DNA from: Ferribacterium limneticum | GTDB taxonomy: Bacteria; Pseudomonadota; Gammaproteobacteria; Burkholderiales; Rhodocyclaceae | Direction of reading: 5' to 3' | Assembly: GCF_020510565.1 (NCBI RefSeq) | Contig: NZ_CP075189.1 | Location: 3,393,501-3,457,500 of the forward strand | Length of the DNA: 64,000 bases | Part shown: positions 8,748-63,477 of the stretch, piece after piece | Position numbering within the stretch: position 1 is the first letter of the stretch | How the letters are laid out: the number at the start of each line of letters is the position of its first letter | Made by a program: the position numbers and the translations under genes | The notes under the pieces: generated by a model | Database searches by the model: none | What the model was told of the DNA's origin: nothing | The model's input: the letters and a program-made list of their open reading frames with translations, nothing else

Positions 8748-9427
8748 ACCTCCGCCCCCTGCCGGCGCTACTGCTGGCATTGCTCGTCCCTTTTTGCGCC
8801 TTCGCCGGCGACGAACGCATCGCCTACACCTGCGACAACAACAGCCGCATCGACATTTCATTTTTGGCCGATATTTCCGGTCGACCGCAGGCGACGCTGC
8901 ATTTCGCCGACCAAGCCGTCGTTTTGCCGCAAGTCCCGGCCGCCTCCGGCGCGCTCTATCGCAGCGGCGACATCCGCCTGGCGACCAAGGGCGACGACGC
9001 CATTTTCGAAGACGGCAAGAACAACCTGCGCCGCTGTACGCGGGGCAGTGTGGCGCCTGTCATGCCGCAGGCCACAACGCAGCCAGCGGCGGCCAGCAGC
9101 TTCATCGACATCGCCGGCCGCGTCAGCTACCTCGCCCGCATTGCCCTGCCGGCCAACGCCATCCTCAAGATCCGCATCCAGTCCGGCCGGCGCACGCTGG
9201 CCGATCAGCGCTACGAACTCAACGGCGCCCAGGTTCCGATTCCCTTCAGCGCCACGGTCGACCGCGACCTCATGGGCAAGAAGGCCAGCGCCACGGTCAG
9301 CGCCCGGATCGAAGCTGGCGGCAAACTGCTTTTTGTCAGCGCCAAACCGACGCCGGCAACGAAAAACGGTCAGCCGGTGCCGGTTAACATCATGCTCAAA
9401 CCGGCCACGCGTGCGACATCCCGCTAG
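8744..9427 (+). CDS. Secreted MliC-like plus YbaY-like two-domain protein
   Basis: 227 residues, start ATG 8744 overlapping the bpt stop. A signal peptide ([21 protein letters not shown]) precedes an MliC-like domain ([13 protein letters not shown]..., about residues 25-100) of the type that inhibits C-type lysozyme. From about residue 120 ([23 protein letters not shown]) it resembles the YbaY/YscW beta-sandwich. A periplasmic role in envelope protection is inferred. Bases 8855-8890 match 30 of 36 positions of the dispersed repeat. No lipobox is evident. The MliC assignment is moderate and YbaY fair. Confidence 0.65.
8855..8890 (+). repeat. 36-bp dispersed repeat, degenerate copy inside coding sequence
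   Basis: It starts ATTTCATTTTTGGCCG and ends with GACCGCAG, about 30 of 36 positions matching the consensus in the same orientation as the gene. It lies in the MliC-like domain. It could be an absorbed copy or coincidence; the match spans the full element length. Confidence 0.45.
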
Positions 9428-9824
9428 TGCGCTGATCGGCACCCTGTTTGCCGGCCTGTTGATCAGCCACGCCAGCGCCGAGGAAAGCGTCTTCTGCCAC
9501 GTCGACTACGCCGGCCAGACGCAGATCGTCGAAGCCCGACCGACGGCCTCGCCCTACACCGTCGAGGCAGTCGAGTTCGGCTCCTACCTGCTCTTCCGCG
9601 CCGTCTTCCGGCGCGAGCCGGCCGACCTCGCCAGCATCAAGCTCTACACCTACGCCCAGCACGAAGACATCATCGGCCGCCCGCTCATCCACCAGGCGAC
9701 CTATGACTACCCGCCCGTGCCTGCCGGCCGCTACGGCTTCACCGGGCTGAACCATGCCTACGAGCCGCGCTACGGCCTCGTCCTCGATTACTGGTGCGAA
9801 CTGCGCGAGACGATTTCAAAATGA
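9411..9824 (+). CDS. Small secreted protein, unknown
   Basis: 137 residues from a GTG at 9411, which overlaps the 3' end of the upstream gene. A signal peptide (LIGTLFAGLLISHASA) is followed by EESVFCHVDYAGQ; two cysteines (FCHV and YWCEL) bracket the mature domain and could pair. I do not recognise the family. The stop overlaps the next ATG (ATGA, 9821), so it is translated in the aat-bpt operon. The last codons lie inside a copy of the dispersed repeat. Confidence 0.6.
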   Translation: MRHPASALIGTLFAGLLISHASAEESVFCHVDYAGQTQIVEARPTASPYTVEAVEFGSYLLFRAVFRREPADLASIKLYTYAQHEDIIGRPLIHQATYDYPPVPAGRYGFTGLNHAYEPRYGLVLDYWCELRETISK

Positions 9825-9848
9825 GGCATTTTTTCCGGTTGACCGTGG
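9813..9848 (+). repeat. 36-bp dispersed repeat, copy at CapA start codon
   Basis: It begins ATTTCAAA and ends CCGGTTGACCGTGG, with about 30 of 36 positions matching the consensus read from the other copies; the divergence is in the middle, where ATGAGGCA creates the start codon. It overlaps the upstream stop and encodes the residues FFRLTV of the CapA signal peptide. Confidence 0.7.
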
Positions 9849-10789
9849 GAATCGCCCTCTTGGCCGCGCTCACCGTCCAGGCCGAGCCGCTGACCCTCAT
9901 TTTTGCCGGCGACGTCATGCTCGATGACGGCCCCGGCCGGCTCATCGCCAAGGGTGGCGACCCGCTCGCCCCGTTCGCCAAAACCCTCAAGGCCGCCGAC
10001 TACCGCATTGCCAACCTCGAAACCCCCGTCGCCAGAAGTGGCCAGCGCTCCGCCGGCAAGCCCTACGCCTTCCGCGCCCACCCACGCGTGCTGCGCGTTC
10101 TGCGCGGACGCTTCGATGCCGTCACGCTGGCCAACAACCACGTTGGCGACTACGGCCACGCCGCCCTGCTCGAAACCCTGCGCCGCCTCGACGCCGCCGG
10201 CATCGGCCACTTCGGTGCCGGCAAAAACCTCATCGAGGCCCACCAGCCGCTGTGGATCGAACGCCACGGCCTCAAGATCGCCATCCTCGGCTACAACGAA
10301 TTCGCCCCGCGCGCCTTCGAAGCTGGCACCAACACGCCCGGCACGGCGTGGAGCGAGGACGATCACGTCATCAGCGACATCCGCGCCGCCAAGGCCGCCG
10401 GCGCCGACCTCATCATTCCCTTCATGCACTGGGGCTGGGAATACGAACCGGCCCCCAGCCCGCGCCTGCAAAGCTTCGCCCGGCGGATGATTGACGAAGG
10501 TGCCAGCATGGTCGTCGGCAGCCACCCGCACGTCACCCAGGGTGCCGACGTATATCAGGGCAAGCCCATCATCTACAGCCTCGGCAACTTCGTCTTCGAC
10601 GGCTTCGAGACCCCGGAAGCCAAGCGCGGCTGGCTGCTCCGCCTCAAGCTCGACAAAACCGGCGTGCTCGAATGGGAAACCCTGGCCGCCAAAATGGACG
10701 GCCACGGCACACCGCACCCCGTGGCCGGCGCAACGACACCCTGCGGCAAGGCCGGCGATACGCGGGTTTCGTTGTGCCGGAACCCGTAA
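9821..10789 (+). CDS. CapA/PgsA-like metallophosphoesterase-fold protein
   Basis: 322 residues. The signal peptide (MRHFFRLTVGIALLAALTVQA) is followed by a CapA fold: FAGDVML, NLETPVA, TLANNHVGDYG, PFMHWGWEYE, GSHPHVTQG and YSLGNFVFD. These Asp, Asn and His residues match the dinuclear-metal phosphoesterase layout. The family (CapA of poly-gamma-glutamate systems) is extracytoplasmic and its exact substrate is usually unknown. No capB/capC neighbours are present, so poly-glutamate synthesis is not supported. The start codon and first signal-peptide codons lie in a dispersed repeat copy (9813-9848). Confidence 0.85.
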   Translation: MRHFFRLTVGIALLAALTVQAEPLTLIFAGDVMLDDGPGRLIAKGGDPLAPFAKTLKAADYRIANLETPVARSGQRSAGKPYAFRAHPRVLRVLRGRFDAVTLANNHVGDYGHAALLETLRRLDAAGIGHFGAGKNLIEAHQPLWIERHGLKIAILGYNEFAPRAFEAGTNTPGTAWSEDDHVISDIRAAKAAGADLIIPFMHWGWEYEPAPSPRLQSFARRMIDEGASMVVGSHPHVTQGADVYQGKPIIYSLGNFVFDGFETPEAKRGWLLRLKLDKTGVLEWETLAAKMDGHGTPHPVAGATTPCGKAGDTRVSLCRNP

Positions 10790-10819
10790 CCCCCTGCTTC
10801 CACAGAAAGGACTGCCGTC

Positions 10820-11269
10820 ATGGATACCCGTTTTCTCGACGACCTCACCCCCGGCCAGCGCTTCACCTCGCCGGGACTGACACTGACCGAAGCCGAGATC
10901 ATCGACTTCGCCTGGCGCTACGACCCGCAGCCCTTCCATCTCGACGCCAACGCGGCCGCCGACTCGCCCTACGGCGGGCTGATCGCCAGCGGTTTCCAGA
11001 GTCTGGCCATCTGCTTCCGGTTGTTCATCCAGTCCGGCATCCTGGCCGAATCGAGCCTGGGGTCGCCGGGCATCGACGAATTGCGCTGGCTGGCCCCCGT
11101 GCGGCCAGGCGATACGCTGCACAGCGAGATCGAAGTACTTGAAGTCCGTCCATCGAACTCGAAGCCGGATCGCGGCATTGCCCGTCTCAAGTATCAGGCG
11201 GTGAACCAGCGTGGCGAGGCGGTCCTCAGTTTCATCGTCATGCATCTGCTGCGCCGCAAACCGGCCTGA
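10820..11269 (+). CDS. MaoC-like acyl dehydratase
   Basis: 149 residues with a hot-dog fold. TEAEIIDFAWRYDPQPFHLD contains the hydratase-2 type active-site segment (Asp and His), and SPYGGLIASGFQ follows as in MaoC-like proteins. The family hydrates enoyl-CoA thioesters or dehydrates 3-hydroxyacyl thioesters. The gene has its own AAAGGA ribosome binding site 30 bases after the CapA gene, so it may extend that operon. No acyl-CoA pathway neighbours help fix its substrate. A dispersed repeat copy starts 16 bases after the stop. Confidence 0.85.
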   Translation: MDTRFLDDLTPGQRFTSPGLTLTEAEIIDFAWRYDPQPFHLDANAAADSPYGGLIASGFQSLAICFRLFIQSGILAESSLGSPGIDELRWLAPVRPGDTLHSEIEVLEVRPSNSKPDRGIARLKYQAVNQRGEAVLSFIVMHLLRRKPA

Positions 11270-11284: not shown

Positions 11285-11320
11285 ATTTCAATTTTGGCCG
11301 TTTTTTCGGGTTGACCGTGG
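11285..11320 (+). repeat. 36-bp dispersed repeat, downstream of MaoC-like gene
   Basis: A near-consensus copy: ATTTCAATTTTGGCCG, a T6 tract, then CGGGTTGACCGTGG, with one change from CCGG to CGGG. It points the same way as the gene it follows. Confidence 0.85.
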
Positions 11321-11360: not shown

Positions 11361-11480
11361 CTCCCTCACCTTCAAGGGGAGGGCCGGGGTGGGGATGGGT
11401 ATCCACAAGCCATGGATTAGACTAGATATCCTCTTTTCACCCCCATCCCCCACCCAGCCTCCCCCTTGAAGGGGGAGGAG
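11361..11480. repeat. Paired palindromic GC-rich repeat (copy 1)
   Basis: The left unit contains TTCAAGGGGAGGGCCGGGGT and GGGATGGGT, and the right unit is an inverted counterpart (CCCATCCCCCACCCAGCC followed by CCCTTGAAGGGGG). The units are about 45 bp each around a spacer of about 30 bp. The right unit itself is a local palindrome around CTTGAAGG. A matching pair lies at 47392-47504. This REP-like class recurs in many betaproteobacteria. Together with the neighbouring dispersed repeat it fills the roughly 300-base gap before lemA; no gene is seen there. Confidence 0.8.
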
Positions 11481-21600: not shown

Positions 21601-22386
21601 ATGATCACAACCAATAATTCATGGGTACTCATCACGGGCGCATCGAGCGGCTTCGGCGAGGAATTCGCCCGCCAATATGCCGAACAAGGCCACTCGCTAG
21701 TCCTCGTGGCGCGCCGGTTCGAACGGCTGCAAGCACTCGCCGAGACGCTGCGCCGGCAATACCGCGTCGAAATCGTGGTCGAGCAGGTCGATCTCTCGGA
21801 CATTGAAGCTATCGTCCAACTGCATCGTCGTCTAAGCGAGAGAGGTATTACAGTCGACATCCTGATAAATAACGCCGGACATGGGTTGCAAGGCCCGTTC
21901 GTGGATAGTCCGCTGGACGCGACGCAGGCAATAGTGCAACTGGATGTAGCGAGCCTGACCGCGGTCACCCATGTCTTTGCCCAGGACATGCGGGCGCGAG
22001 GACGCGGGAAGATCCTGCTGGTGGCCAGCCTGCTGGCCTACCAGGGCGTGCAGAACTTCGCCGTCTATGCGGCCGCCAAGGCCTACGTATTGCGTCTGGG
22101 CGAAGCGCTCCATCGCGAGCTCAAGGGCGATGGCGTCACCGTGACGACGCTTTGCCCCGGCATGTCGGATACCGGCTTCGCTGCCGCGGCGCAGCAGAAG
22201 GTCACGCCCGCGTTAAAGCTGTTGATGATGCAGCCAGCCCCCGTCGTGCGCACCGGTATCCGCGCCTTACAGACCGGACGCATCAGCGTCGTTCCGGGCT
22301 GGGCGAACAAGGCCCTCGTGATCCTCACGTGGGCCACGCCACGCTGGCTGCACCAAGCTTTTTTATCGCACGCGATGAACGGATGA
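21601..22386 (+). CDS. Short-chain dehydrogenase/reductase (DltE-like)
   Basis: 261 residues, classical SDR. Cofactor motif ITGASSGFGEEFA, NNAGHG, a catalytic Ser in LLVASLLAYQG, and YAAAKA carrying the Tyr-x3-Lys pair. Substrate unknown. It is close behind the outer membrane factor and likely shares the TetR-controlled transcript, suggesting induction along with efflux, which is inference. Confidence 0.88.
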   Translation: MITTNNSWVLITGASSGFGEEFARQYAEQGHSLVLVARRFERLQALAETLRRQYRVEIVVEQVDLSDIEAIVQLHRRLSERGITVDILINNAGHGLQGPFVDSPLDATQAIVQLDVASLTAVTHVFAQDMRARGRGKILLVASLLAYQGVQNFAVYAAAKAYVLRLGEALHRELKGDGVTVTTLCPGMSDTGFAAAAQQKVTPALKLLMMQPAPVVRTGIRALQTGRISVVPGWANKALVILTWATPRWLHQAFLSHAMNG

Positions 22387-22651: not shown

Positions 22652-22687
22652 ATTTCAATTTTGACCGTTTTTTCCGGTTGACCGTGG
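22652..22687 (+). repeat. 36-bp dispersed repeat, between SDR and acylphosphatase genes
   Basis: A near-consensus copy, ATTTCAATTTTGACCG then a T6 tract and CCGGTTGACCGTGG, with one change from GGCCG. It points the same way as the SDR gene upstream, and the convergent acylphosphatase gene ends 10 bases beyond. Confidence 0.85.
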
Positions 22688-32119: not shown

Positions 32120-32173
32120 CCACGGTCGACCGGGTTTACTACGTGAAACGTAAAAAACGGCCAAAATTGAAAT
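32120..32173 (-). repeat. Dispersed repeat copy interrupted by about 18 bases
   Basis: The outer parts match the repeat (ATTTCAATTTTGGCCG and GACCGTGG read on the minus strand), but about 18 extra bases occur in the middle, containing TTTAC...GTAAA inverted ends. It lies between the export ATPase and permease genes, in the orientation of the upstream gene. Confidence 0.75.
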
Positions 32174-34127: not shown

Positions 34128-35509
34128 GGTCTTCCTTCCGCCGCCGGTTGCAGCAGCGTGTAATCGAGCGCGCCCATGGACTGAGCCAGCGTGGCGCGAT
34201 AAACATTCCAGTCGAGCTGCGCCTGAATGCGTTGCAGCCGGGCACTGGCCAGGGCGCTCTGCGCCGACAGCAGATCGAGCACGGTGCCGACGCCGGCCTT
34301 GTAGCGGCCGAGCGCGACGCGTTCCGACTGCTCGGCGCTGGCGACCAGATCAGCCGAGGTCTTCAGGCTTTGCGTCGCTGTCGTCAGGCTTTGATAAGCC
34401 CGCCAGACATCGAGGGCAATCTGGTTCTTGATGCGGTCGCGCTGCGCGGCGCGAACATCCGCCTGCGCCGCGGCCGAACGCACGCGGTAAGTCGTGTCGA
34501 AACCCGTGAAGATCGGCACATTGAGCGTCAGGCCGATGCTGCCACCCTGCGTGACGACGCCAGCCGAATTCTGCCAGCTCGGCCCGGCCGCCAGCGAGAC
34601 GGTCGGCCGGCCTTGGGCGCGTGCCAGATCAACACTCGCCTCAGCGGCCTTGAGCTGCGCCTCGGCCGCCTTGAGATCAGGCCGCCGGGCCTGCGCCTCG
34701 GCGATCATGGCGTCGACTTCCTTCTGGAAAGCCAGCTCGGCCGGCAAAGCGGGCAGCTCGGCCAACACGATTTTTTGCTGCGCCTCGAAACCGAGCGCAT
34801 TGGCCAGCGCACCGAGCCCGTTGCGTGCCTCGCCCTCGGCCCTGATGCGATTGAGCGTCGCTTGCGACAACGCGGTCTGCGCCTGCAGGCGATCAGCCGG
34901 CGTGGCGACGCCGACGTTGTAGCGGGCGTCAGCCGCCTGATAAGCCTCGCGCGCCGAACGCTCGGCCTCGCTCGCCGAAATCACCGCCGCCTGCGTCGCC
35001 TGCGCCGTGTAGTAAGTCTGTAGCGCGGCGAGGAACAGCGACTGCACCGTCGCATCCTGCGTCGCTGCGGCTGCATTGAGCAATTGCTGGGCATTCTCGA
35101 CATTGGCCGAACGCTGGCCGAAATCGATCAGCAACCAGGACAACGTCAGCGCAGCGGAACGCCGGTTGTACGAACCATCGTCATACTGAAACCGCGTCGC
35201 GCTGGCGCTGGCATCGAGGTTCGGCAACCAGCCGGCCCGGGCGACACCAACGAGCGCCGCCTGCACCCGCGCCGAGGCCCACACCTCGCGCGTCTGCGGG
35301 TGGTTGCACAGGGCCAGATCGACCGCCTCGAGCGCCGTCAGCGCTGTCGCCGGCAAGGCCGTGGCACAGGGCGCTTCGCCAACCCGGGCAGCCAGGCTGG
35401 GCGACACCTTGAGCGGCGCCATGGCCTCGGTGCCGAACGGATCGTCCAGGCCGCCGGCCCAAGAGGGCAGTGCTACGGTCAACAGGAAAAAACAGGGTAA
35501 AAATCGCAT
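34124..35509 (-). CDS. TolC-family outer membrane channel
   Basis: 461 residues; signal peptide MRFLPCFFLLTVALPSWAG. Two TolC repeats (ALTALEAVDLALCNHPQTREVWASARVQAALVGVARAGWLP; RPDLKAAEAQLKAAEASVDLARAQGRPTVSLAAG). It is the first gene of a tolC-macA-ATPase-permease-flavoprotein operon. The start codon and first signal-peptide codons overlap a degenerate dispersed repeat (35473-35509), encoding FFLLTV as in the CapA gene. Confidence 0.92.
   Translation of the reverse strand: MRFLPCFFLLTVALPSWAGGLDDPFGTEAMAPLKVSPSLAARVGEAPCATALPATALTALEAVDLALCNHPQTREVWASARVQAALVGVARAGWLPNLDASASATRFQYDDGSYNRRSAALTLSWLLIDFGQRSANVENAQQLLNAAAATQDATVQSLFLAALQTYYTAQATQAAVISASEAERSAREAYQAADARYNVGVATPADRLQAQTALSQATLNRIRAEGEARNGLGALANALGFEAQQKIVLAELPALPAELAFQKEVDAMIAEAQARRPDLKAAEAQLKAAEASVDLARAQGRPTVSLAAGPSWQNSAGVVTQGGSIGLTLNVPIFTGFDTTYRVRSAAAQADVRAAQRDRIKNQIALDVWRAYQSLTTATQSLKTSADLVASAEQSERVALGRYKAGVGTVLDLLSAQSALASARLQRIQAQLDWNVYRATLAQSMGALDYTLLQPAAEGRP
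35473..35509 (-). repeat. Dispersed repeat, degenerate copy at tolC-like start
   Basis: On the minus strand a T-rich stretch followed by CCTGTTGACCGTAG matches the 3' half of the repeat; the first half has diverged and supplies the ATG. The frame relative to the repeat is the same as in the CapA gene. Confidence 0.55.
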
Positions 35510-35900: not shown

Positions 35901-35920
35901 TTTGCCGAAAAAGCAGACTT

Positions 35921-35956
35921 CCACGGTCAACCGGAAAAAACGGCCAAAAATGAAAT
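35921..35956 (-). repeat. 36-bp dispersed repeat between the arms of the composite repeat
   Basis: A near-perfect copy on the minus strand (begins ATTTCATTTTTGGCCG, ends CCGGTTGACCGTGG). It sits in the 100-base core between the two inverted arms. Confidence 0.85.
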
Positions 35957-36000
35957 CTGCCATTCAGGCACCCAAGCTAAAGCACGGATCGTTTCACCGG

Positions 36001-38553: not shown

Positions 38554-40304
38554 TGCTGATGAATCTGTTCAAGTTCAAGGGTGGCGTCAAGCCGCCGAGC
38601 AACAAGCTGCAATCGAACCATCTGCCGATTGCCCAGGCACCGATGCCTTCGCGGCTGGTCGTACCGTTGCACCAGAGTATCGGCGGCACGCCGCGGCCGA
38701 TCGTCGCCGCCGGCGATCATGTCCTCAAGGGCCAGATGATCGGCGAGGCTGACGGCTGGATTTCCGCCGCCGTGCATGCCCCGACATCGGGCACCGTGGT
38801 CGAGGTGGCGATGCATGTCCGCCCCCACCCGTCCGGCCTCGACTCGCTGTGCGTCGTCATTGAACCCGATGGCAAGGACGAGTGGATCGCCCGCACGCCG
38901 ATCGATCACAAGGCGGCAGCGCCGGCCGACGTCTTCCATCACCTGCAGCAATGCGGCATCGTCGGCCTCGGCGGCGCCGGTTTCCCGGCCCACGGCAAGC
39001 TGACACCGTCCACGGGCGTGCCGATGGATGAGCTGATCATCAACGGCGCCGAGTGCGAACCCTTCATCACCTGCGACGACCTGCTGATGCGCGAGCGCGC
39101 CGATGAAGTCGTGCGCGGCATCGCTGTTTTCCGCGATCTTCTGCAACCGAAAAAGGTGCTGATCGGCATCGAGGACAACAAACCGGAAGCCATCGCCGCC
39201 ATGCGTGCCGCGGTCGACGCCCAAAAAGAACCATTTTCCGTCGTTGCCGTGCCGACGCTTTACCCGGCCGGTGGTGCCAAGCAGTTGATCCGCGTGCTGA
39301 CTGGCAAGGAAGTGCCGGGCTCGATGCGGTCGACGGCCGACATGGGTGTCCAGGTCTTCAACGTCGGCACCGCCTACAGCGCCTGGCGCGCCGTCGCCCA
39401 CGGCGAGCCGCTGATTTCTCGCATCCTGACCATTACCGGCAATGTCCACGCGCCGCGCAATTACGAAGTCCTGATCGGCACGCCGATGGACGAACTGCTC
39501 GCCCTCGCCCAGCCGCACCCGGACACCGACGGCATCCTGATGGGCGGCCCGATGATGGGTTTCCTGGTGCCCAACCCGCAGGTGCCGGTGGTCAAGACGA
39601 CCAATTGCCTGATCGCCCACGACGACCGGCTGTTCCCGCCCAAGGCCCCGGAGATGCCGTGCATCCGTTGCGGCGCCTGCGCCCGGGCCTGCCCGCACGA
39701 ACTGCAACCGTTCGAGATGTACTGGTTCTCGCGCGCCAAGAATTTCGGCAAGACGCAGGAATACAACATCTTCGACTGCATCGAATGCGGCTGCTGCTCC
39801 TACGTCTGCCCGTCGCGCATCCCGCTGGTCCAGTATTTCCGCTTTGCCAAGAGCGAAATCTGGGCACGCGAACGCGAAAAGAATGCCTCCGACCAGGCCA
39901 AGACGCGTTTCGAGTTCAAGCAGTATCGCGAAGAGCGCGAAAAGGCCGACAAGGCTGAAAAGCTGGCCAAGGCCGCCGCCGCGCAAGCCGCCAAGAAGGC
40001 GGCCGAAGCGGCAGCAGCGGCAGCCGAAAGCGGCGCCGCGCCGGCCGCCGATACGGCCGCTTCGCCGGCAGTCACTGCCGATGCACCCGCTGCCACGGTC
40101 AACCCGGAAAAAGAGGCAAAACGCGCAACGATTGAGGCCGCCATGGCGCGAGCCAAGGCACAGCGCGAAGCCGTTCAACCGAAGAACACCGAAAACCTGT
40201 CGGCGGACCAGCAGAAGGCTGCCGCCGACATCGAGGCGCGCCGCATCGCCGCCCACCTGATAGAGCCCGAGCCGGCAACCCCGGCCAGCGAGAAACCCGA
40301 GTAA
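38553..40304 (+). CDS. rnfC: Rnf/Rsx subunit C
   Basis: 583 residues, ATG 38553 overlapping the rnfB stop. The SLBB and NADH-binding region (GGAGFPAHGKL, NGAECEPFITCDD) and two 4Fe-4S motifs (CIRCGACARACP; CIECGCCSYVCPSRIP) are present. The long Ala/Lys/Glu tail (about 465-583) is typical in length of proteobacterial RnfC and probably helical. Bases about 40093-40120 in the tail resemble the dispersed repeat. Confidence 0.95.
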   Translation: MLMNLFKFKGGVKPPSNKLQSNHLPIAQAPMPSRLVVPLHQSIGGTPRPIVAAGDHVLKGQMIGEADGWISAAVHAPTSGTVVEVAMHVRPHPSGLDSLCVVIEPDGKDEWIARTPIDHKAAAPADVFHHLQQCGIVGLGGAGFPAHGKLTPSTGVPMDELIINGAECEPFITCDDLLMRERADEVVRGIAVFRDLLQPKKVLIGIEDNKPEAIAAMRAAVDAQKEPFSVVAVPTLYPAGGAKQLIRVLTGKEVPGSMRSTADMGVQVFNVGTAYSAWRAVAHGEPLISRILTITGNVHAPRNYEVLIGTPMDELLALAQPHPDTDGILMGGPMMGFLVPNPQVPVVKTTNCLIAHDDRLFPPKAPEMPCIRCGACARACPHELQPFEMYWFSRAKNFGKTQEYNIFDCIECGCCSYVCPSRIPLVQYFRFAKSEIWAREREKNASDQAKTRFEFKQYREEREKADKAEKLAKAAAAQAAKKAAEAAAAAAESGAAPAADTAASPAVTADAPAATVNPEKEAKRATIEAAMARAKAQREAVQPKNTENLSADQQKAAADIEARRIAAHLIEPEPATPASEKPE

Positions 40305-42710: not shown

Positions 42711-43754
42711 ATGCGCATCGAAACCATCCGCCAAGCCCTGTTTGCAACGGGCGCCAAGGATTGCCACGTCGACCGCGTCATGCGCGCCTGGGCGCAGGGC
42801 AAACCGCTCGATGCCGGGCCAAGCCGCCATCCGCCGGAAACCTTTCTGCCGCTTGCCCTGCGCAATGCGCTGCCCGGGTTGCACGATGAACTCTCGGCGC
42901 TGGCCCGCGTCCGCTCCGAGCACCCGGGCGAGGATGGTTCGTCGCGCCTGCTCGTCGAACTGGCCGATGGCCAGACCGTCGAAAGCGTGCTGCTGCCGCG
43001 CGACGGCCTGTGCATCTCGACGCAGATCGGCTGCGCCGTCGGCTGTACTTTCTGCATGACCGGCCGCGATGGCCTCCTGCGTCAGGTAAGCAGCGGCGAG
43101 ATGGTCGCCCAGGTCATCCTCGGCCGGGCCCGGCGCAAGGTCACGCGGGTTGTATTCATGGGCATGGGCGAGCCGTCGCACAACATCGACAACGTGCTCG
43201 AGGCGATTGATCTGCTCGGTACGGCCGGCGGCATCGGGCACAAGAACCTGGTGTTCTCGACGGTCGGCGATTTGCGCGTTTTCGAGCGGCTGCCGCAGGA
43301 AACCGTCAAGCCGGCGCTGGCCATTTCACTGCACTCGACCCGCGCCGAACTGCGCGCCGAGTTGTTGCCCAAGGCTTCCCGCATCGACCCGGCCGAACTG
43401 GTCGAACTGGCTGAGCATTACGCGCGGACGACGAGCTATCCGATCCAGTACCAATGGACGCTCATCGACGGCATCAACGACAGCTTTGAGGAAATGGACG
43501 GCATCGTTCGCCTGCTCACCGGCAAGTACGCGATCATGAACCTGATCCCGTACAACGCCACGGCGGCGCTGTCCTACCAGCGCCCACCGCTTGAGCGGAT
43601 TACCGAACTGACGCGCTACCTGCACGCCCAAGGCATCCGGACGACAGTACGCAACTCGGCCGGGCAGGATGTCGATGGTGGCTGCGGCCAGTTGCGGGCG
43701 CGCGAAAGCGCTCGCCCATTGCTACGGTCAACCGGAAAAATCGGCCAAAAATGA
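42711..43754 (+). CDS. RlmN/Cfr-like radical SAM RNA methyltransferase paralogue
   Basis: 347 residues. Radical SAM cluster CAVGCTFCMTG, SAM segment FMGMGEPSHN, ISLHSTRAELR and the C-terminal Cys in GGCGQLR, homologous to the methyl-carrying Cys of RlmN. RlmN methylates A2503 of 23S rRNA and some tRNAs. It is shorter and clearly divergent from standard RlmN (the N-terminal part is reduced), so it may be a paralogue with a different RNA target. The last 11 codons (LLRSTGKIGQK) and stop lie in a dispersed repeat copy, so the native tail may have been replaced. Confidence 0.82.
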   Translation: MRIETIRQALFATGAKDCHVDRVMRAWAQGKPLDAGPSRHPPETFLPLALRNALPGLHDELSALARVRSEHPGEDGSSRLLVELADGQTVESVLLPRDGLCISTQIGCAVGCTFCMTGRDGLLRQVSSGEMVAQVILGRARRKVTRVVFMGMGEPSHNIDNVLEAIDLLGTAGGIGHKNLVFSTVGDLRVFERLPQETVKPALAISLHSTRAELRAELLPKASRIDPAELVELAEHYARTTSYPIQYQWTLIDGINDSFEEMDGIVRLLTGKYAIMNLIPYNATAALSYQRPPLERITELTRYLHAQGIRTTVRNSAGQDVDGGCGQLRARESARPLLRSTGKIGQK

Positions 43755-43757
43755 AAT
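43722..43757 (-). repeat. 36-bp dispersed repeat overlapping the radical SAM gene stop
   Basis: A near-consensus minus-strand copy. It encodes the last codons and stop of the plus-strand radical SAM gene and follows the 3' end of the minus-strand cyclase gene by about 25 bases, in that gene's orientation. Confidence 0.85.
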
Positions 43758-45270: not shown

Positions 45271-45903
45271 GTGAAAAAAGCCAATATCGAGCAGTTCTAC
45301 AGCCGCCTGCGCGACGCCAATCCGGCGCCGACGACCGAGCTGCACTACGCCACGCCCTTCCAGTTGCTGATCGCCGTCATTTTGTCGGCGCAGGCCACCG
45401 ACGTCGGCGTCAACAAGGCGACGGCGCGGCTCTACCCGGTCGCGCCAACGCCATCCGCCATGCTGGCGCTCGGCGAAGAGGGCCTGACCGAATACATAAA
45501 AACCATCGGCCTGTACCGCACCAAGGCCAAAAACGTCATCGCCACCTGCCGCATGCTGCTCGAACTGCACGACGGCGAGGTGCCGGACGACCGCGCGGCC
45601 CTCGAAGCCCTGCCCGGCGTCGGCCGCAAGACGGCCAATGTCGTGCTCAACACGGCTTTCGGCCAGCCGACCATCGCCGTCGACACGCACATTTTCCGCC
45701 TCGGCAACCGTACCGGGCTGGCCCCCGGCAAGACGGTCGAAGAAGTCGAAAAGAAGCTGCTCAAGGTGACGCCGGAAGAATTCAAGAAGGACGCCCACCA
45801 CTGGCTGATCCTGCACGGCCGCTACGTCTGCAAGGCGCGCAAGCCGGACTGTGGCCGCTGCGTCGTGCTCGACCTGTGCAGCTACCGGAGCAAGAGCGTA
45901 TGA
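45271..45903 (+). CDS. nth: Endonuclease III
   Basis: 210 residues from a GTG at 45271. HhH motif LPGVGRKTANVVLN, catalytic Asp in AVDTHIFRL, and the 4Fe-4S cluster C-x6-C-x2-C-x5-C near the C-terminus. Base-excision repair glycosylase/lyase for oxidised pyrimidines. nth commonly follows rnfE in proteobacteria; here a radical SAM gene and a cyclase lie between. Overlaps the FIST gene (ATGA). Confidence 0.95.
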   Translation: MKKANIEQFYSRLRDANPAPTTELHYATPFQLLIAVILSAQATDVGVNKATARLYPVAPTPSAMLALGEEGLTEYIKTIGLYRTKAKNVIATCRMLLELHDGEVPDDRAALEALPGVGRKTANVVLNTAFGQPTIAVDTHIFRLGNRTGLAPGKTVEEVEKKLLKVTPEEFKKDAHHWLILHGRYVCKARKPDCGRCVVLDLCSYRSKSV

Positions 45904-46916
45904 AAGCTGGCAGCGCCCTCGTTTCGGGCCAGCGACCGGAAGCGGAACTGGCTCATGAGGCTGTCCAGGCAGCGCTGGCCGCCGCCGGGCTGGAACGCGC
46001 CGATAACGTCATCCTGCTTCTGACCCACGATTTCAACCGCAATCCGCAACCTGCCGTACTCGCCGCGGCGCGCGCTGCCGGCTGCCTTGCGGTTAGCGGC
46101 GGCACGGCCAGCGGGCTGTTTACCGAGCGCGGCTGGCGCCTCGATCAACCGGCGGCAGCGGCCCTCGTTTATGCAGCGCCGACCAGCGAACTATCGGCAG
46201 AATCGCCGCTCCTCTCATTCAGCGGCCACAGCCGCCTGCCTTTCGAATGGCAGGAAGGCGCCGCGCGAGTCGGCCTGCTCGACACCGATGCCGCCGTCTG
46301 GTCGCATGGCCGCACGGCAGAAAACGCCTGTGCCGAGTTTCGCTTGCCCGGGGTGAACGCCCGCATCGCCCGCTCATCCGGCCTGCGCCTGCTCAGCGAA
46401 GCACAGTCTGTCGAGCAATGCGCCGGTTACGAATTGCGCCGGGTCGGCGGCCACAGCGCCGTCGACAGCCTGCGCCGCGCCCTGCCGGCCGAATTGCGCG
46501 AACGCCCGCCGCTGCACCACATCGTCGCGCTGCGCCAGGCCGACGCGCCGGGTATCGCCATCCTCTCGGCCAATGCCGACGGTTCGCTGACCCTGGCCGA
46601 AAACCTCAACGAGGGCGAGACGATCACCTGGGCCATCCGCCAGCCGCTCGCCGCCGAGCAGGACATGCGGGAAGTGCTCACTGCCACGGTCAACCCGGGA
46701 AAACAGCCAAATTTCGCCTTGATGTTTTCCTGCATCGGCCGCGGTCCCCTGTTCTACGGCAACGACGACCGCGACCTCGTCGCCTTCCGCGACACCTTCC
46801 CCGGCACGCCGCTGCTCGGCGCCTACGGCACCGGGCAAATCGCCCCGCTGGCCGGGTCCAACCGCCTGTTCCACAACACTGCACTCACCTTAATGTTCGA
46901 AAGCGCTCATGTTTAA
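45900..46916 (+). CDS. FIST N- and C-domain protein
   Basis: 338 residues. FIST_N (LVSGQRPEAELAHEAVQAALAAAGLERADNVILLLTHDF) and FIST_C (GRGPLFYGNDDRDLVAFRDTFPGTPLLGAYGTGQIAP), a sensory/ligand-binding module thought to bind small molecules. No attached kinase, so it may act in trans. Bases about 46684-46716 in the C domain resemble the dispersed repeat in frame. Overlaps nth and DUF1841. Confidence 0.85.
   Translation: MKAGSALVSGQRPEAELAHEAVQAALAAAGLERADNVILLLTHDFNRNPQPAVLAAARAAGCLAVSGGTASGLFTERGWRLDQPAAAALVYAAPTSELSAESPLLSFSGHSRLPFEWQEGAARVGLLDTDAAVWSHGRTAENACAEFRLPGVNARIARSSGLRLLSEAQSVEQCAGYELRRVGGHSAVDSLRRALPAELRERPPLHHIVALRQADAPGIAILSANADGSLTLAENLNEGETITWAIRQPLAAEQDMREVLTATVNPGKQPNFALMFSCIGRGPLFYGNDDRDLVAFRDTFPGTPLLGAYGTGQIAPLAGSNRLFHNTALTLMFESAHV
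46684..46716 (-). repeat. Dispersed-repeat-like segment inside the FIST gene
   Basis: CCACGGTCAACC followed by GGGAAAACAGCCAAATTTC matches the repeat with one inserted base; in the gene it encodes ATVNPGKQPNF. It may be an absorbed copy or coincidence. Confidence 0.4.
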
Positions 46917-47391: not shown

Positions 47392-47504
47392 CCCCCTCCC
47401 CTTCAAGGGGAGGGCCGGGGTGGGGATGGGTTATTCGGCGGCAGTCACGATCGGCTTCCTTCAGACCCATCCCCCACCCGACCTCCCCCTTGAAGGGGGA
47501 GGAG
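47392..47504. repeat. Paired palindromic GC-rich repeat (copy 2)
   Basis: The same two units as at 11361-11480 in the same arrangement (left unit with TTCAAGGGGAGGGCCGGGGT, right unit inverted, ending CTTGAAGGGGGAGGAG), with an unrelated spacer. Confidence 0.82.
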
Positions 47505-47540: not shown

Positions 47541-47576
47541 CCACGGTCAACCGGAAAAAACGGCCAAAATTGAAAT
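47541..47576 (-). repeat. 36-bp dispersed repeat just after the GspE/PilB-like gene
   Basis: A perfect or near-perfect consensus copy on the minus strand, about six bases from the stop of the ATPase gene it follows. Confidence 0.88.
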
Positions 47577-47582
47577 GCCGGC

Positions 47583-49367
47583 CTAGCTGTCATCCGACGG
47601 CGGAGCGACCTTGATAACCTCTTCCAGCGAAGTGATCCCCTGCGCCACCTTGAGCGCGCCGGAAATGCGCAGCGGGCGCATGCCTTCGCGGAAGGCCTGT
47701 TCGCGCAGCTTGGGAATCTCGGTGAGCGGTTTGATCATGCGGCGAATTTCCGGCGAATTGACCAGGATTTCATAGACACCGACCCGGCCGGAATAACCGG
47801 TCATCCGGCATTCCAGGCAACCGACCGGCTGCCAGATCTGGGTTGGTTCGGCCGATTTCCACGGGGCGACCAGCGCCCGCCAGGCGGCGCGCTGCTCTTC
47901 GCGCGGCGTCACGGCCTTCTTGCAGTGCGGGCACAGGGTACGGACGAGGCGCTGGGCCATAACGCCGAGCAGCGTCGAGTTGATCAGGTAGGCCGGCACG
48001 CCGAGGTCGAGCAGGCGGGTGATGGCCGACGGTGCGTCGTTGGTGTGCAGCGTCGACAACACGAGGTGACCGGTCAGCGCCGCCTGGATGGCCATCTCGG
48101 CCGTTTCCAGATCGCGGATTTCGCCGATCATGACGATGTCCGGATCCTGCCGCATAAGCGCGCGCACGCCGTCGGAAAAGCCGAGGTCGATGGCCGGGCT
48201 GACCTGCATCTGGTTGAACGAAGCCTCGACCATTTCGATCGGGTCTTCGATGGTGCACACGTTCACTTCCGGCGTCGCCAGTTGTTTCAGCGTGGTGTAC
48301 AGCGTCGTCGTCTTGCCCGAACCGGTCGGTCCGGTCACCAGGATGATGCCGTTCGGCGACGAGGTCATCTGCTTCCAGCGCGCCTGGTCTTCATCCGAAA
48401 AGCCCAGCGAGCGGAAGTCACGAACGAGCACTTCCGGGTCGAAAATCCGCATCACGAGCTTTTCGCCGAAGGCCGTCGGCAGCGTCGACAAACGTAGCTC
48501 GACCTCCTGCCCGGCCGGCGTCCGCGTCTTGATCCGGCCGTCCTGCGGCCGGCGTTTTTCGATGACGTCCATGCGGCCGAGCAGCTTGATACGGCTCGTC
48601 ATCGCGTTCATCACCGCCATCGGAATCTGGTAAACCTGATGCAGCACACCGTCGATGCGGAAGCGGACGATGCCGAGATTGCGCCGTGGCTCGATGTGGA
48701 TGTCGGAAGCGCGCTGGTCAAAGGCGTACTGCCACAGCCAATCGACGATGTGCACGATGTGCTGGTCGTTGGCGTCGAACTGCTTGTTGGCCTTGCCCAG
48801 CTCGACCAGTTGCTCGAAGCTCGACAGGCCGGAAGTCACATCGCCCCGGGCGTTGGCCTTCTTGACCGATTTGGCGAGATTGAAGAACTCGACGAGGTAA
48901 CGGCTGATGTCCTCGGGATTGGCCATCACCCGGCGAATCTGCTTGCGCAGGATCTGCTGCAACTCCTCGACCCATTCGCGAACGAAGGGCTCGGCCGTCG
49001 CGATGACAATCTCGCGCGTCGTCACCTGCACGGGCAGGATGCCGAAACGGGCGGCATAGGCGCTGGACATGACTTCGGCAACGCCGGTGAAATCGATCTT
49101 GAGCGGGTCGATATGCTGGTAGTCGAGGCCGACCCGGCCAGCCAGCCATTCGGTCAGCACTTCCAGCGTAAGCAGGCGGGTGGGCGGACCAGCCTGTCGC
49201 CACTTTTGATCGGCGATGACGATCAGCGGATGCGTCTTGCCGCCATGCAGGCGACGCTCGCTCTTGAGCGCATCAGCCGCCTCCCGGCTGACCAGCCCAT
49301 CCTCCACCATCCAGTCGAGCACTTCGGTCAGTGCCAGGCGGTGTTCGCCGATATTCTTGTCACTCAT
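47583..49367 (-). CDS. GspE/PilB-family secretion or pilus ATPase
   Basis: 594 residues from ATG 49367 (MSDKNIGEHR). The N-terminal GSPII_E domain is followed by the ATPase with Walker A GPTGSGKTT, Asp box and Walker B (LMRQDPDIVMIGEIRD), HLVLSTLHTNDA, and a zinc tetra-Cys site (CPHCKK...CLECRMTG). Such ATPases assemble type IV pili or type II secretion pseudopili. No other pilus or Gsp genes adjoin, so which system it serves is open. Confidence 0.9.
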   Translation of the reverse strand: MSDKNIGEHRLALTEVLDWMVEDGLVSREAADALKSERRLHGGKTHPLIVIADQKWRQAGPPTRLLTLEVLTEWLAGRVGLDYQHIDPLKIDFTGVAEVMSSAYAARFGILPVQVTTREIVIATAEPFVREWVEELQQILRKQIRRVMANPEDISRYLVEFFNLAKSVKKANARGDVTSGLSSFEQLVELGKANKQFDANDQHIVHIVDWLWQYAFDQRASDIHIEPRRNLGIVRFRIDGVLHQVYQIPMAVMNAMTSRIKLLGRMDVIEKRRPQDGRIKTRTPAGQEVELRLSTLPTAFGEKLVMRIFDPEVLVRDFRSLGFSDEDQARWKQMTSSPNGIILVTGPTGSGKTTTLYTTLKQLATPEVNVCTIEDPIEMVEASFNQMQVSPAIDLGFSDGVRALMRQDPDIVMIGEIRDLETAEMAIQAALTGHLVLSTLHTNDAPSAITRLLDLGVPAYLINSTLLGVMAQRLVRTLCPHCKKAVTPREEQRAAWRALVAPWKSAEPTQIWQPVGCLECRMTGYSGRVGVYEILVNSPEIRRMIKPLTEIPKLREQAFREGMRPLRISGALKVAQGITSLEEVIKVAPPSDDS

Positions 49368-50066: not shown

Positions 50067-50090
50067 GAAATGCCGGGCAACCGGCATTTC
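50067..50090 (+). terminator. Hairpin fused to a dispersed repeat, after the Cys-repeat gene
   Basis: GAAATGCCGG-GCAA-CCGGCATTTC, a perfect 10-bp stem with a GCAA tetraloop, then AATTTTGG. The 3' arm ends in the ATTTC that begins the dispersed repeat. Confidence 0.6.
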
Positions 50091-50121
50091 AATTTTGGGC
50101 AAATATTCCGGTTGACCGTGG
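50086..50121 (+). repeat. 36-bp dispersed repeat, after the Cys-repeat gene
   Basis: ATTTCAATTTTGGGCA then ATATTCCGGTTGACCGTGG; same orientation as the upstream gene, with a few changes in the T-tract region. Confidence 0.82.
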
Positions 50122-60209: not shown

Positions 60210-60752
60210 ATGACCAAACTCGCCACGCCCAACTACCTCGCCGGCTACCCCGCGCATCTGACGGATTCGGTGCACCGGCTGATCGAACAGGATCAGCTCG
60301 GCCAGGTACTGCGCCAGAAGTATCCCGAGGTGCACCAAATACGCACCGACAGGGCGCTCTACGACTACGTTCAGGAGATCAAGGCGACGTATTTGCGCAA
60401 CGCGCCGCAGCCGAGCAAGGTGGCTTTTGATGGCAAGTTGCAGACGCTGCAAAAAGCGCTCGGCATCCACAGCCGGATCGCCCGCATCCAGGGCGGCAAG
60501 CTCAAGAGCAAGCGCGAAATCCACGTCGCCAGCATCTTCCGCGAGATGCCGCCGGAGTTCCTGCAAATGATCGTCGTCCATGAAATCGCCCACCTCAAGG
60601 AACCAGAGCACGACAAGGCGTTCTATCAACTTTGCCAGCACATGGAGGCGAATTACTTCCAGCTGGAATTCGACCTGCGCGCCTATTTGTGCCACCTGGC
60701 CGCCGGCGGCCCGCCGTTGTGGGCGGCCGAAGTTTCGGCCGGGAATTCGTGA
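60210..60752 (+). CDS. YgjP-like zinc metallopeptidase-domain protein
   Basis: 180 residues. HEIAHLKEPEHDKAFYQLCQHM gives HExxH plus a third His, matching the YgjP/M48-like family, cytosolic and of unknown substrate. Divergent from the MFS gene. A dispersed repeat copy starts three bases after the stop. Confidence 0.88.
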   Translation: MTKLATPNYLAGYPAHLTDSVHRLIEQDQLGQVLRQKYPEVHQIRTDRALYDYVQEIKATYLRNAPQPSKVAFDGKLQTLQKALGIHSRIARIQGGKLKSKREIHVASIFREMPPEFLQMIVVHEIAHLKEPEHDKAFYQLCQHMEANYFQLEFDLRAYLCHLAAGGPPLWAAEVSAGNS

Positions 60753-60755: not shown

Positions 60756-60791
60756 CTACGGTCGACTGGAAAAAATGGCCAAAATTGAAAT
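60756..60791 (-). repeat. 36-bp dispersed repeat between YgjP-like and YkgJ genes
   Basis: A minus-strand copy (ATTTCAATTTTGGCCATT...CAGTCGACCGTAG) between two plus-strand genes, 10 bases before YkgJ; one of the two intergenic copies not co-directional with the gene before it. Confidence 0.82.
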
Positions 60792-60800: not shown

Positions 60801-61316
60801 ATGAGCCAACTGACCGAACTCCACGCCGACATCGATTCCCGCGTTCTCAGCATCCGCGAAAACCACGCCGACTGGCTGTGCGGCAAGGGCTGCGACAGTT
60901 GTTGCAAACGCCTGGCCGAAGTGCCGCAATTGACCGCCGCCGAGTGGAATTTGCTGCGCGAGGGGCTGGCCGAACTGGCAGCTGATCATCTGCAGGCCAT
61001 CAGCCGGGAGATCGCTGCTTTGGCTGGATCGGCTGAGCGCCCGGTCATCTGCCCGCTGCTCGACCACGCCACCGGCGCCTGCCCGGTCTATGTGCATCGC
61101 CCGGTGGCCTGCCGCAGCTACGGTTTCTACATGCAGCAAGGCCTCGGGCTGTATTGCCACGACATCGAACAGCAGGTTGCCAATGGCGAGTTGTCGAACG
61201 TGGTCTGGGGCAACCACGACGCCATCGATCACCGGCTGGCCGGACTCGGCGAAAGTCGGCCGCTGACCGACTGGTTTGCCGATTGGGAACGCGAAAAGCA
61301 CGCCATCGACCGGTGA
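60801..61316 (+). CDS. YkgJ-family cysteine cluster protein
   Basis: 171 residues, ATG 60801 (a TTG at 60795 is an alternative). CGKGCDSCCK, CPLLDHATGACPVY, RPVACRSYGFY and YCHDIE supply the Cys cluster, which probably binds zinc or iron-sulfur. Function unknown. Convergent with dbpA. Confidence 0.87.
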   Translation: MSQLTELHADIDSRVLSIRENHADWLCGKGCDSCCKRLAEVPQLTAAEWNLLREGLAELAADHLQAISREIAALAGSAERPVICPLLDHATGACPVYVHRPVACRSYGFYMQQGLGLYCHDIEQQVANGELSNVVWGNHDAIDHRLAGLGESRPLTDWFADWEREKHAIDR

Positions 61317-61324: not shown

Positions 61325-61360
61325 CCACGGTCAACCGGAAAAAACAGCCAAAATTGAAAT
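61325..61360 (-). repeat. 36-bp dispersed repeat between YkgJ and dbpA
   Basis: A near-consensus minus-strand copy following the dbpA gene; its ATTTCAA forms part of the terminator stem below. Confidence 0.87.
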
Positions 61361-61386: not shown

Positions 61387-61392
61387 AACCGC

Positions 61393-62793
61393 TTAATTGG
61401 TCAGAATCCGCACCTTGACGGTCTTGCCTTTGACCTTGCCTGCCGACAGCTTGCGCACCGTTTCCTTGGCAACACCACGCGCCACGGCGACGTAGGTGCT
61501 CTGATCAGTCACCGTGATCTTGCCGACCTGCTCGCGGGTCAGGCCGGCCTCACCGGCCAGCGCGCCCATGACGTCACCGGGGCGAATTTTGTCCTTGCGC
61601 CCGCCGAGCATGAGCAGCGTGGACATCGGCGGCACGAGCGGTGAGTCGTCAGTGACTTCGACAGTTTTCAAGTCGAGCACGTCGAGCTTGCACTTCATCA
61701 TCTCGGCGATAGTCGCCACACGGCGGCGGTCGCCGGAACTGCACAAGCTCAGCGCCCAGCCCTCCTCATCGCCCCGGCCGGTGCGGCCGATGCGGTGAAT
61801 GTGGATTTCCGGGTCGGGCGTCACATCGACGTTGATGACCGCTTCCAGCTGATCGATATCGAGGCCACGGGCTGCGACATCGGTCGCCACGAGCACCGAG
61901 CAACTGCGATTGGCGAACTGGATCAACACCTGATCGCGCTCGCGCTGTTCCAGATCACCATTCAGCGTGAGCGCGTGAATACCGGCGTGGCGCAGGACAT
62001 TGACCAGATCGCGGCACTGCTGCTTGGTGTTGCAGAAGGCCAGCGTGCTGACCGGGCGGTAATGTTTGAGCAGGCGCACGACGGCGTCGAGACGCTCTTC
62101 GTGTTTCACCTCGTAAAAACGCTGGCGAATTTTCGTTTCTTCGTGCTGCTCAAGGAGTTTGACCTCCTTCGGCTGACGCAAGAACTGCTTGGCCAGCTGG
62201 GCGATGCCTTCCGGATAAGTCGCCGAAAACAGCAGTGTCTGGCGCTGCGCGGGGCAACGCTTGGCGACGTAGGCAATGTCGTCATGGAAGCCCATGTCGA
62301 GCATGCGGTCGGCTTCGTCGAAGACCAGCGTGTTCAGCTCGTCGAGCTTGAGATAACCGCGCTCCATGTGATCCATGATGCGACCGGGCGTGCCGACGAC
62401 GATATGCACGCCGTTTTCCAGACTGTTCGCCTGATTGCGCAGCGTCGAGCCACCGACCAGCGAGAGCACCTTGATGTTCTCTTCAAAGCGGGCCAGACGA
62501 CGGATTTCCTGCGTCACCTGATCGGCCAGCTCGCGCGTCGGGCAAAGGACCATGGCCTGCACGGCAAAACGGCTGGTATTCAGGCGATTGAGCAAGGCAA
62601 GGCCGAAGGCGGCGGTCTTGCCGCTGCCGGTCTTGGCCTGGGCGATCAGATCTTGGCCAGCCAGGGCCAGCGGCAGGCTGGCGGCCTGGATCGGCGTCAT
62701 GCTCAGATATTCAAGCTGCACCAGATTGGCCAGCATGGCCGGCGACAAGGGCAGCGTGTCAAAAGCGTTGCTGGCGGTGGAATTCTCGCTCAT
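61393..62793 (-). CDS. dbpA: DEAD-box ATP-dependent RNA helicase DbpA
   Basis: 466 residues. Q motif, AKTGSGKTAAFG, PTRELADQV, DEAD in VFDEADRMLDMGF, SAT, and C-terminal helicase motifs (RIGRTGRG), followed by the DbpA RNA-binding domain (DKIRPGDVMGALAGEAGLTREQVGKITV) that targets 23S rRNA hairpin 92. A ribosome assembly factor. The preceding gene is seven bases upstream, likely same transcript. Confidence 0.93.
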   Translation of the reverse strand: MSENSTASNAFDTLPLSPAMLANLVQLEYLSMTPIQAASLPLALAGQDLIAQAKTGSGKTAAFGLALLNRLNTSRFAVQAMVLCPTRELADQVTQEIRRLARFEENIKVLSLVGGSTLRNQANSLENGVHIVVGTPGRIMDHMERGYLKLDELNTLVFDEADRMLDMGFHDDIAYVAKRCPAQRQTLLFSATYPEGIAQLAKQFLRQPKEVKLLEQHEETKIRQRFYEVKHEERLDAVVRLLKHYRPVSTLAFCNTKQQCRDLVNVLRHAGIHALTLNGDLEQRERDQVLIQFANRSCSVLVATDVAARGLDIDQLEAVINVDVTPDPEIHIHRIGRTGRGDEEGWALSLCSSGDRRRVATIAEMMKCKLDVLDLKTVEVTDDSPLVPPMSTLLMLGGRKDKIRPGDVMGALAGEAGLTREQVGKITVTDQSTYVAVARGVAKETVRKLSAGKVKGKTVKVRILTN

Positions 62794-62800
62794 GCGCCGC

Positions 62801-63289
62801 TCAAACCTTGCGCTTGCGCGCCGGCATCGGCTTGCGCTGGCGCTGGCCCGGCTTATGAACTTCGGCCTCCGGCTTTGGCTTGGGGACCAGCAGATTCTTG
62901 GCAGTCGTCTTCTCCGAAGCGCGATGGGCCAGAATGGCCGCGGTCACGTCAGCGGGATCAACGGTTACGCCGGCATGCTCGCCCTTGACGTTGTAAGCCG
63001 AGAGCCTGTCCTTGATGGCGAACAGGCGTTCCGGATTTTCCGCCTTGCGGGGAAGGCCGGTCACGATTTCCTGCGCGGCAGCAGTCAGCACGAACCCACC
63101 GCCCTCCGCCTTGATCAGGCCATGCTTGGCCAAGCGATCAAACGCCTCGACCAGCTTCGCCTCGTTGGGAATGTTGTTCTGCAGCAGATCAGCCGCCGCA
63201 ACGATCTCGACCAGTTCGCCCGGCCGCCGCTTGGAAGAAAGCGCCGTGGCGAGAATGAGAAGGGAGTCAACGTCGTGGACTGGATGCAT
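62801..63289 (-). CDS. Winged-helix-like small protein with basic tail, dbpA partner
   Basis: 162 residues. The N-terminal region (LVEAFDRLAKHGLIKAEGGGFVLTAAAQEIVTGL) looks like a winged helix, and the tail is rich in Lys, Arg and Pro (KPGQRQRKPMPARKRKV), suggesting nucleic acid contact. Family not recognised. Seven bases from dbpA, so a role with the helicase is possible. Confidence 0.65.
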   Translation of the reverse strand: MHPVHDVDSLLILATALSSKRRPGELVEIVAAADLLQNNIPNEAKLVEAFDRLAKHGLIKAEGGGFVLTAAAQEIVTGLPRKAENPERLFAIKDRLSAYNVKGEHAGVTVDPADVTAAILAHRASEKTTAKNLLVPKPKPEAEVHKPGQRQRKPMPARKRKV

Positions 63290-63439
63290 CGGAGTACCTA
63301 TGAATAGCGGAGGAATGAGAAACGGCGGGGAATCAGCGGGTCAAAGGCCTGTGAAAATGCGGCCTGAAATCAGTTTCTCGAAAGGACGACAGTGTACCCG
63401 GTTTGCCGGTCAAGGCGGCGCGAAACCTGACATCCAATG

Positions 63440-63471
63440 CTACGGTCAACCGGAAATTCATGCCAATTTCC
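63440..63471 (-). repeat. 36-bp dispersed repeat, truncated copy after htpG
   Basis: On the minus strand it keeps AATTGGCATGAATTTCCGGTT and GACCGTAG-type ends but has lost several central bases. Orientation follows htpG. Confidence 0.6.
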
Positions 63472-63477
63472 ACTCGT

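Follow-up and report, generated by a model that had tools for sequence, protein, structure and literature searches.

A dispersed 36-bp repeat of Ferribacterium limneticum with the features of a putative self-specific DNA uptake signal

Self-DNA uptake sequences are described, in the portion of a 2025 paper drawn on here (PMC12616744), as known only in Neisseriaceae and Pasteurellaceae. The uptake signal sequence (USS) of Pasteurellaceae combines a short core with subsequent A/T segments spaced by about one helical turn; the centres of segments 2 and 3 are 12 positions apart, segment 2 has an A-then-T texture, and the density of the USS and of the DNA uptake sequence (DUS) of Neisseriaceae is close to one per kb (excerpts of PMC1626085). 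The DUS, found in Betaproteobacteria, comes in dialects that share a fixed inner core and differ by few bases (excerpts of PMC3630211). Here we describe a 36-bp repeat that shares the USS layout and, like the DUS, forms dialects in Betaproteobacteria. It was noticed as 15 copies in a 64,000-nucleotide stretch of the Ferribacterium limneticum genome (hereafter the window; positions 3393501-3457500 of the 4,150,051-bp single-contig genome, genome code G000). The repeat is abundant, combines a core with helically phased tracts, occurs within genes in either orientation, arose by substitution in coding DNA, forms dialects and is scarce in DNA of odd composition; together, these features make up the signature of an uptake sequence. 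We consider it probable that the repeat serves as a self-specific signal for DNA uptake, similar to the USS and DUS in function and independent in origin, within a single genus that probably belongs to Rhodocyclales. With only slightly less confidence, we suggest that it represents a third independently evolved system of self-DNA recognition for natural transformation, in a genus that holds three or more dialects as well as several species lacking sites.

A 32-mer consensus of the repeat matched the genome 174 times with up to 3 mismatches, on both strands (90/84), while its reversed control had no match. The core motif YACGGTCRAC occurred 896 times genome-wide compared to 38 in the reversed control. 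Individual sites were scored with a 40-column profile, which was built from 38 copies in the same genome and applied to 60 evenly spaced 20-kb stretches (L-numbers), 1.2 Mb in all or 29% of the 4.15-Mb genome. This sample contained 215 sites at a score >0 and 207 at a score >5, the latter being our main site set; the reversed sample contained zero sites >5 and zero even above -10. Among over-represented 10-mers and 12-mers with at least 25 copies in the sample, the repeat ranked at the top, with ACGGTCAACC present 163 times versus 3.5 expected. All 15 copies that a sequence-only reading had listed in the window were confirmed, and the repeat proved far more abundant genome-wide (207 sites in the 29% sample). 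In the species quoted in the consulted part of PMC3630211, DUS copies number 943 to 5918 per genome, compared to the 896 cores here. The genomes of those species are smaller than this one.

On the A-rich strand, ATTSC precedes the near-invariant core YACGGTCAACCGG. Three A/T tracts follow, at +13 to +18, +24 to +29 and +31 to +34; a GC spacer separates the first two, and a G the second and third. The tract letters differ between copies (AAAAAA, AAATTT) while A/T composition stays constant. Because deep-genic cores picked by the 10-mer alone (n=106) show the tracts as well, with an A+T of 0.85 at +14-17 and 0.83 at +24-28 compared to 0.34 beyond, the tracts were not created by the profile; the same two positions had an A+T of 0.43 and 0.38 in cores from site-poor congeners (n=10) and 0.42 and 0.40 in mirror-control cores (n=9). 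The tract centres lie ~11 positions apart versus 12 in the USS, for which the excerpts of PMC1626085 also describe, as seen for the repeat, an absence of orientation bias and coding copies that arose by substitution. The same excerpts present the DUS as having no flanking motifs, unlike the repeat, and the DUS sequence differs too. The inner core of the USS, GCGG, is unrelated to CGGTCRAC, and the version of the repeat in this genome (dialect A) has, unlike the USS, a third A/T segment and a GAAAT end. The repeat is also sparser than the USS, and its host is betaproteobacterial. Because the core is unrelated to GCGG and the named carriers are betaproteobacterial Azonexaceae rather than Pasteurellaceae, we describe the repeat as USS-like and do not class it as a USS.

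Gene calls came from a simple purpose-made gene finder with a coding coverage of 79%, so some sites labelled intergenic may be genic. The 207 sample sites divided into 97 intergenic sites, 25 across a gene end and 85 within genes, the last at all relative gene positions and in both orientations (49/36). Convergent gaps held 41 of the 115 gap or gene-end sites with two neighbours, compared to 20% expected by base pairs (p 1.7e-4), and divergent gaps held 14 of the 115, compared to 21% expected (p 0.016). Of the 60 sites in same-strand gaps, 38 were closer to the 3' end (p 0.05). The preference for gene 3' ends that had been proposed from the window is thus real but modest, with 85 of 207 sites being genic. 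Same-strand gaps showed no orientation bias (T-rich with the genes in 35 of 60, A-rich in 25 of 60, p 0.25), indicating that there is none beyond that given by the convergent-gap excess; the bias toward the direction of the upstream gene that had been noted in the window (eight of ten copies) was not seen in the same-strand gaps of the genome sample.

These placements bear on the suggestion that the repeat is a transcript-end element, acting as a terminator, processing or regulator site. The convergent-gap excess would fit such a role, as would the ability of overlapping dyad pairs in congener G147 to form strong hairpins: nine such pairs, with 13-bp spacing, occur in 180 kb, and one of them folds with a z of -9.7. 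The G147 pairs resemble the overlapping dyad pairs of the DUS of S. muelleri (excerpts of PMC3630211). When two single sites of the window were folded, the one at 22652 was weakly more stable than shuffles (z -2.2), and the one at 47541 folded like shuffles on both strands (z -0.2, 0.2). Because so many sites are genic, in both orientations, and those in same-strand gaps are unbiased in direction, a transcript-end function appears to be at most secondary, and we regard it as a highly improbable explanation of the repeat.

Along the chromosome, the sites showed no strand bias (289/281), a Poisson-like spread (dispersion index of 1.05 in the 60 stretches) and no visible gradient between replication origin and terminus (ori/ter), with ordinary density near the skew maximum at ~2.35-2.42 Mb. 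Four site pairs lay within 100 bp, close to the 5.7 given by chance, two sharing a divergent and two a direct geometry. Site density rose with GC content across the 60 stretches (rho 0.64, p 3e-8), such that the 13 stretches <58.5% GC carried 1.38 sites each compared to 4.02 in the other 47 (p 3e-6). Ten proteins encoded in L220, L227, L228 and L229, all of them site-poor, matched metabolic, transport and signalling families, with no phage genes among them; because these are ordinary families, it is composition that suggests a foreign origin of the low-GC stretches.

The main rival explanation is a chromosome-wide site for a genus-specific nucleoid or chromosome-organising protein, in which selection for occupancy would maintain the sites and the dialects would track the protein. 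A sequence-specific, genome-wide site with helically phased A/T tracts, a higher density between genes, and orthologous positions kept in carrier species (strict core in 21 of 30 comparisons, see below) would all be expected of such a protein. The missing ori/ter gradient and strand bias, the Poisson-like spread and the depletion in low-GC DNA argue against it, and enrichment below 3-fold in 30 of 76 genomes of the genus would be odd for a site needed in chromosome maintenance. The chromosome-organising motifs KOPS and matS are likewise short dispersed sites that also occur in genes; unlike them, the repeat is free of strand and ori/ter bias and is much longer. We consider a nucleoid-protein site unlikely, although the broader idea that the repeat binds a protein, as the sequence-only reading had offered, is probably right.

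To ask how sites arise, we return to the coding copies, for which homologous DNA from four motif-less congeners was aligned. A gap test of the same type showed that Haemophilus USS are not insertions (Redfield and colleagues, excerpts of PMC1626085). Among the 19 genic comparisons (18 distinct, as window site 8855 is also L237 13172), 9 were gapless and 15 had net zero length change; one was without 20 bases. The flanks had a mean identity of 0.76, compared to 0.53 for the site itself. No alignment at a genic site was split, so the requirement for unbroken alignments concealed no insertions. With no net insertion relative to site-poor congeners, the compared coding sites are, as these alignments indicate, products of base substitution. 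In carrier species, the strict core was kept in 21 of 30 comparisons covering 24 distinct sites, a set that omits the matches that fetched each locus as well as L237, which repeats the window. Of the nine comparisons in which it was not kept, four had a TGCGGTC-type variant core in the relative (three of these being variant here too), two involved the composite site at 32120, two aligned to an opposite-facing copy in L050, and one appeared to be a true loss.

The possibility of a short mobile element, whether a repetitive extragenic palindrome (REP), a miniature inverted-repeat transposable element or an insertion sequence end copied by a transposase, is touched by the same data. The near-identical, sharply edged 36-bp intergenic copies, a copy number that is patchy across the genus, and gapped or split intergenic alignments to site-poor relatives would be in agreement with it. 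Coding sites, however, lack net insertion (15/19), the core dialects share a fixed second tract, and a Y1 transposase match is absent from G000 and from the site-rich genomes G165, G181, G191, G195 and G196; one or two such matches occur in the rich genomes G166, G171, G207 and G218, and 33 of the 76 genomes have them overall. Such an element therefore fails at coding sites, where congener homologues align without insertion, a result that does not by itself decide the intergenic copies; as an account of the repeat as a whole it is the least probable of those considered. Like REP or REPIN elements with their RAYT transposase, the repeat has hundreds of short intergenic copies; unlike them, it has no RAYT-family match in its genome, is an imperfect palindrome and has genic copies without insertion. 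REP/RAYT was rejected, with 0 PF01797 matches in G000. A plasmid or phage element was also rejected: the 36-mer had no blastn hit among 72,556 plasmid and 50,697 phage records, and viral contigs contained no exact copy of a degenerate 32-mer, although a pattern of that length makes for a search of little power. The sequence-only reading had held that it would fall if genome-wide copies lacked a 3'-end bias, lacked conservation or belonged to a known REP-like family: the bias is weak, conservation between species is clear (21/30), and REP does not fit, with no REP-associated transposase match in the genome.

The exact repeat was found in at least 120 genome-contig stretches. Named carriers among the matches listed are Azonexus and Dechloromonas (both Azonexaceae, Rhodocyclales), Azonexaceae and Rhodocyclaceae; these matches include Dechloromonas denitrificans ATCC BAA-841 and metagenome bins labelled just Proteobacteria, Betaproteobacteria or Gammaproteobacteria. 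The probable placement of the genus in Rhodocyclales follows from the named carriers. Across 76 genomes of the genus, the 32-mer (up to 3 mismatches) was present in >30 copies in 13 and in 0-7 copies in the rest, and the enrichment of YACGGTCRAC over its control reached 3-fold or more in 46 and 8-fold or more in 21, with 30 below 3-fold. In a family sample of 180 genomes, 5 of them from this genus, the number of cores never exceeded 87 in the genomes of other genera, a few of which were slightly over control (for example, G052 with 61 versus 8). De novo 10-mer counts, in which no motif was assumed, recovered several dialects that differ from the core by one or two bases: YACGGTCAACCGG in G000 and G195, CACGGTCGAC ranking first in G147, G156 and G201, CGCGGTCGAC together with TGCGGTCGAC in G155, and mixtures in G188 and G205. 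The top 10-mers of G150, G154, G168 and G202 included no motif of this kind. All seven rich congeners sampled shared the inner core CGGTCRAC as well as the second tract, which had an A+T of 0.72-0.90. USS likewise have dialects by subclade, as described in part of PMC12616744. None of the papers in the collection searched linked uptake sequences with Dechloromonas or Rhodocyclales, and a literature search by literal motif pieces returned nothing related, as judged by titles.

Competence genes are present in the carrier: a search that took in ComEC, ComEA, DprA and pilins found ComEC (an 833-aa frame), DprA and ComEA in G000, together with 17 pilin-type N-termini, 16 of them over the cut-off. 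Some of these pilins we take to be fimT-like or pilE-like; above cut-off, NCBIfam assigned the candidates only the generic prepilin domain. We infer the following route for the uptake signal. The core around CGGTCRAC would be recognised by a receptor on the cell surface, for which a type IV minor pilin is the likeliest candidate. The A/T tracts, located one and two helical turns further downstream, would make it easier for the DNA to kink or open, allowing it to cross the outer membrane as proposed for the USS. ComEA and ComEC would then import a single strand, which would go on to recombine. Alleles with better sites would be taken up and recombined preferentially, so that sites would build up by point substitution across the shared genome, newly acquired DNA would hold fewer of them, and drift of the receptor would give each lineage a separate dialect.

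Several comEC genes in the genus are altered. The frame is short in G158, G219, G220, G197 and G205 and broken in G168 and G160. In two genomes, it lies in two pieces ~33 kb apart (G181:C33:109525-144033 and G202:C1:2218607-2251879), as if a large element had integrated.

A number of observations weigh against an uptake signal. Density in G000, at one core per 4.6 kb, is below that of the classical systems; intergenic density is ~8 times genic density; the dialect-A unit is conserved across ~36 bp, more than a receptor footprint requires; G188 (0.47) and G205 (0.43) have a weak first A/T tract; and L230 is a stretch of normal GC with zero sites. In the gap test, none of the five spanned intergenic comparisons was gapless, and three further intergenic alignments were split, with 23-104 extra bases in G000. 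These alignments do not show a substitution origin for the intergenic copies, where copying may have occurred. In a mixed cross-species set of 49 comparisons, identity was no higher in the site than in the flanks (0.78 versus 0.80, p 0.74), and the relative scored >5 in 25. Site enrichment was not significantly related to comEC frame length (p 0.43; 45 long versus 11 short frames among the 56 genomes at least 90% complete). Case by case, G157, G168 and G202 fit the expectation that few sites go with a short frame, and G181 and G205 do not, being site-rich despite short comEC frames; in Pasteurellaceae, recent loss of competence leaves USS in place (excerpts of PMC1626085). Finally, one candidate pilin had sequence matches in 75 of 76 genomes, rich and poor alike, with many of these covering the conserved N-terminus only. 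As matches to it occur in rich and poor genomes, its presence or absence is uninformative and no receptor is named.

If the repeat is an uptake signal, the genus would offer a natural experiment on the start, drift and loss of uptake specificity, and the USS-type architecture of a core with helically phased A/T tracts would have evolved twice. A recurrent design of this kind would suggest a general physical role for the tracts as DNA enters the cell. A third origin, in environmental hosts with dialect-rich and site-less sister species, would open the questions of why uptake sequences evolve and which receptor reads them, and would let the role of dialects in splitting species be asked directly. 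The repeat would also be a genome-wide marker separating recombining from foreign DNA in these bacteria.

The 40-column profile gives 12 of the 15 window sites a score >5; those at 35473, 40093 and 63440 score lower and retain the 10-mer core with a poor tail. Gene coordinates below are from the purpose-made finder and domain names from Pfam. The site at 8855..8890 (- strand, score 44.9), with the variant core TGCGGTCGAC, lies within gene 8744-9427, encoding a YscW/MliC-domain protein, and its alignment to the homologue in site-poor G154 has balanced gaps (3/3). The site at 9813..9848 (-, 45.6), which is kept in loci L040, L079 and L144, spans the position where gene 9839-10789 (PGA_cap) probably starts and likely codes for the first residues of the product. 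At 43722..43757 (+, 72.0), the site provides the stop codon of the radical SAM gene 42711-43754. The site at 46684..46719 (+, 17.8) is within gene 45900-46916 (FIST_C); compared to the G154 homologue, identity is 0.89 in the flank and 0.59 in the site, with gaps of 1/1. The core-only site at 40093..40128 (+) is within gene 38553-40304, with core CACGGTCAAC at 40094. A further poor-tail site, 35473..35508 (+), is at the probable start of gene 34124-35482(-), with core TACGGTCAAC at 35474.

The remaining sites are outside genes. Those at 11285..11320 (-, 70.3), 15 bp after the stop of 10820-11269, and 60756..60791 (+, 66.4), 3 bp after the stop of 60210-60752, directly follow genes, and the exact 32-mer at 47541..47576 (+, 72.8) is separated by 6 bp from the stop of the MshEN/T2SSE ATPase gene 47583-49367(-). 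The site at 61325..61360 (+, 72.8) occupies the convergent gap between 60801-61316 and 61393-62793(-), and that at 35921..35956 (+, 73.6) is intergenic in a divergent gap. Intergenic sites also occur at 22652..22687 (-, 72.5), flanked by 21601-22386 and 23137-25002, at 50086..50121 (-, 40.8), and at 63440..63475 (+), where an intact core TACGGTCAAC at 63441 is followed by a degenerate tail. Beyond the 3' end of 32182-32883(-), a composite at 32120..32173 (+) joins a left half-site, CCACGGTCGACCGGG, at 32120-32134 to a degenerate full site at 32138-32173 (score of the full part, 45.5).

Composite sites of this kind, with the left half-site directly repeated ahead of a full site, were also seen at L233 3027 and L239 2937 (19 bp in both) and in L023 and L024, the half-site being partly degenerate in L024 and the full site degenerate in the window. 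Near-identical sites at L206 2161 and L216 1152 lie close to the 5' ends of two 996-bp genes, perhaps paralogues. Other repeats were observed in the window. Nested long inverted repeats with arms of 50-59 bp (35667-36208) enclose the site at 35921. A GC-rich intergenic repeat of ~110 bp is present in two copies, at 11363-11480 and 47394-47504 (blocks 91% and 97% identical), which lie near the sites at 11285 and 47541, respectively. Gene 43782-45182(-) holds a direct duplication at 44291-45143, with 432-bp spacing and 70-73% identity.

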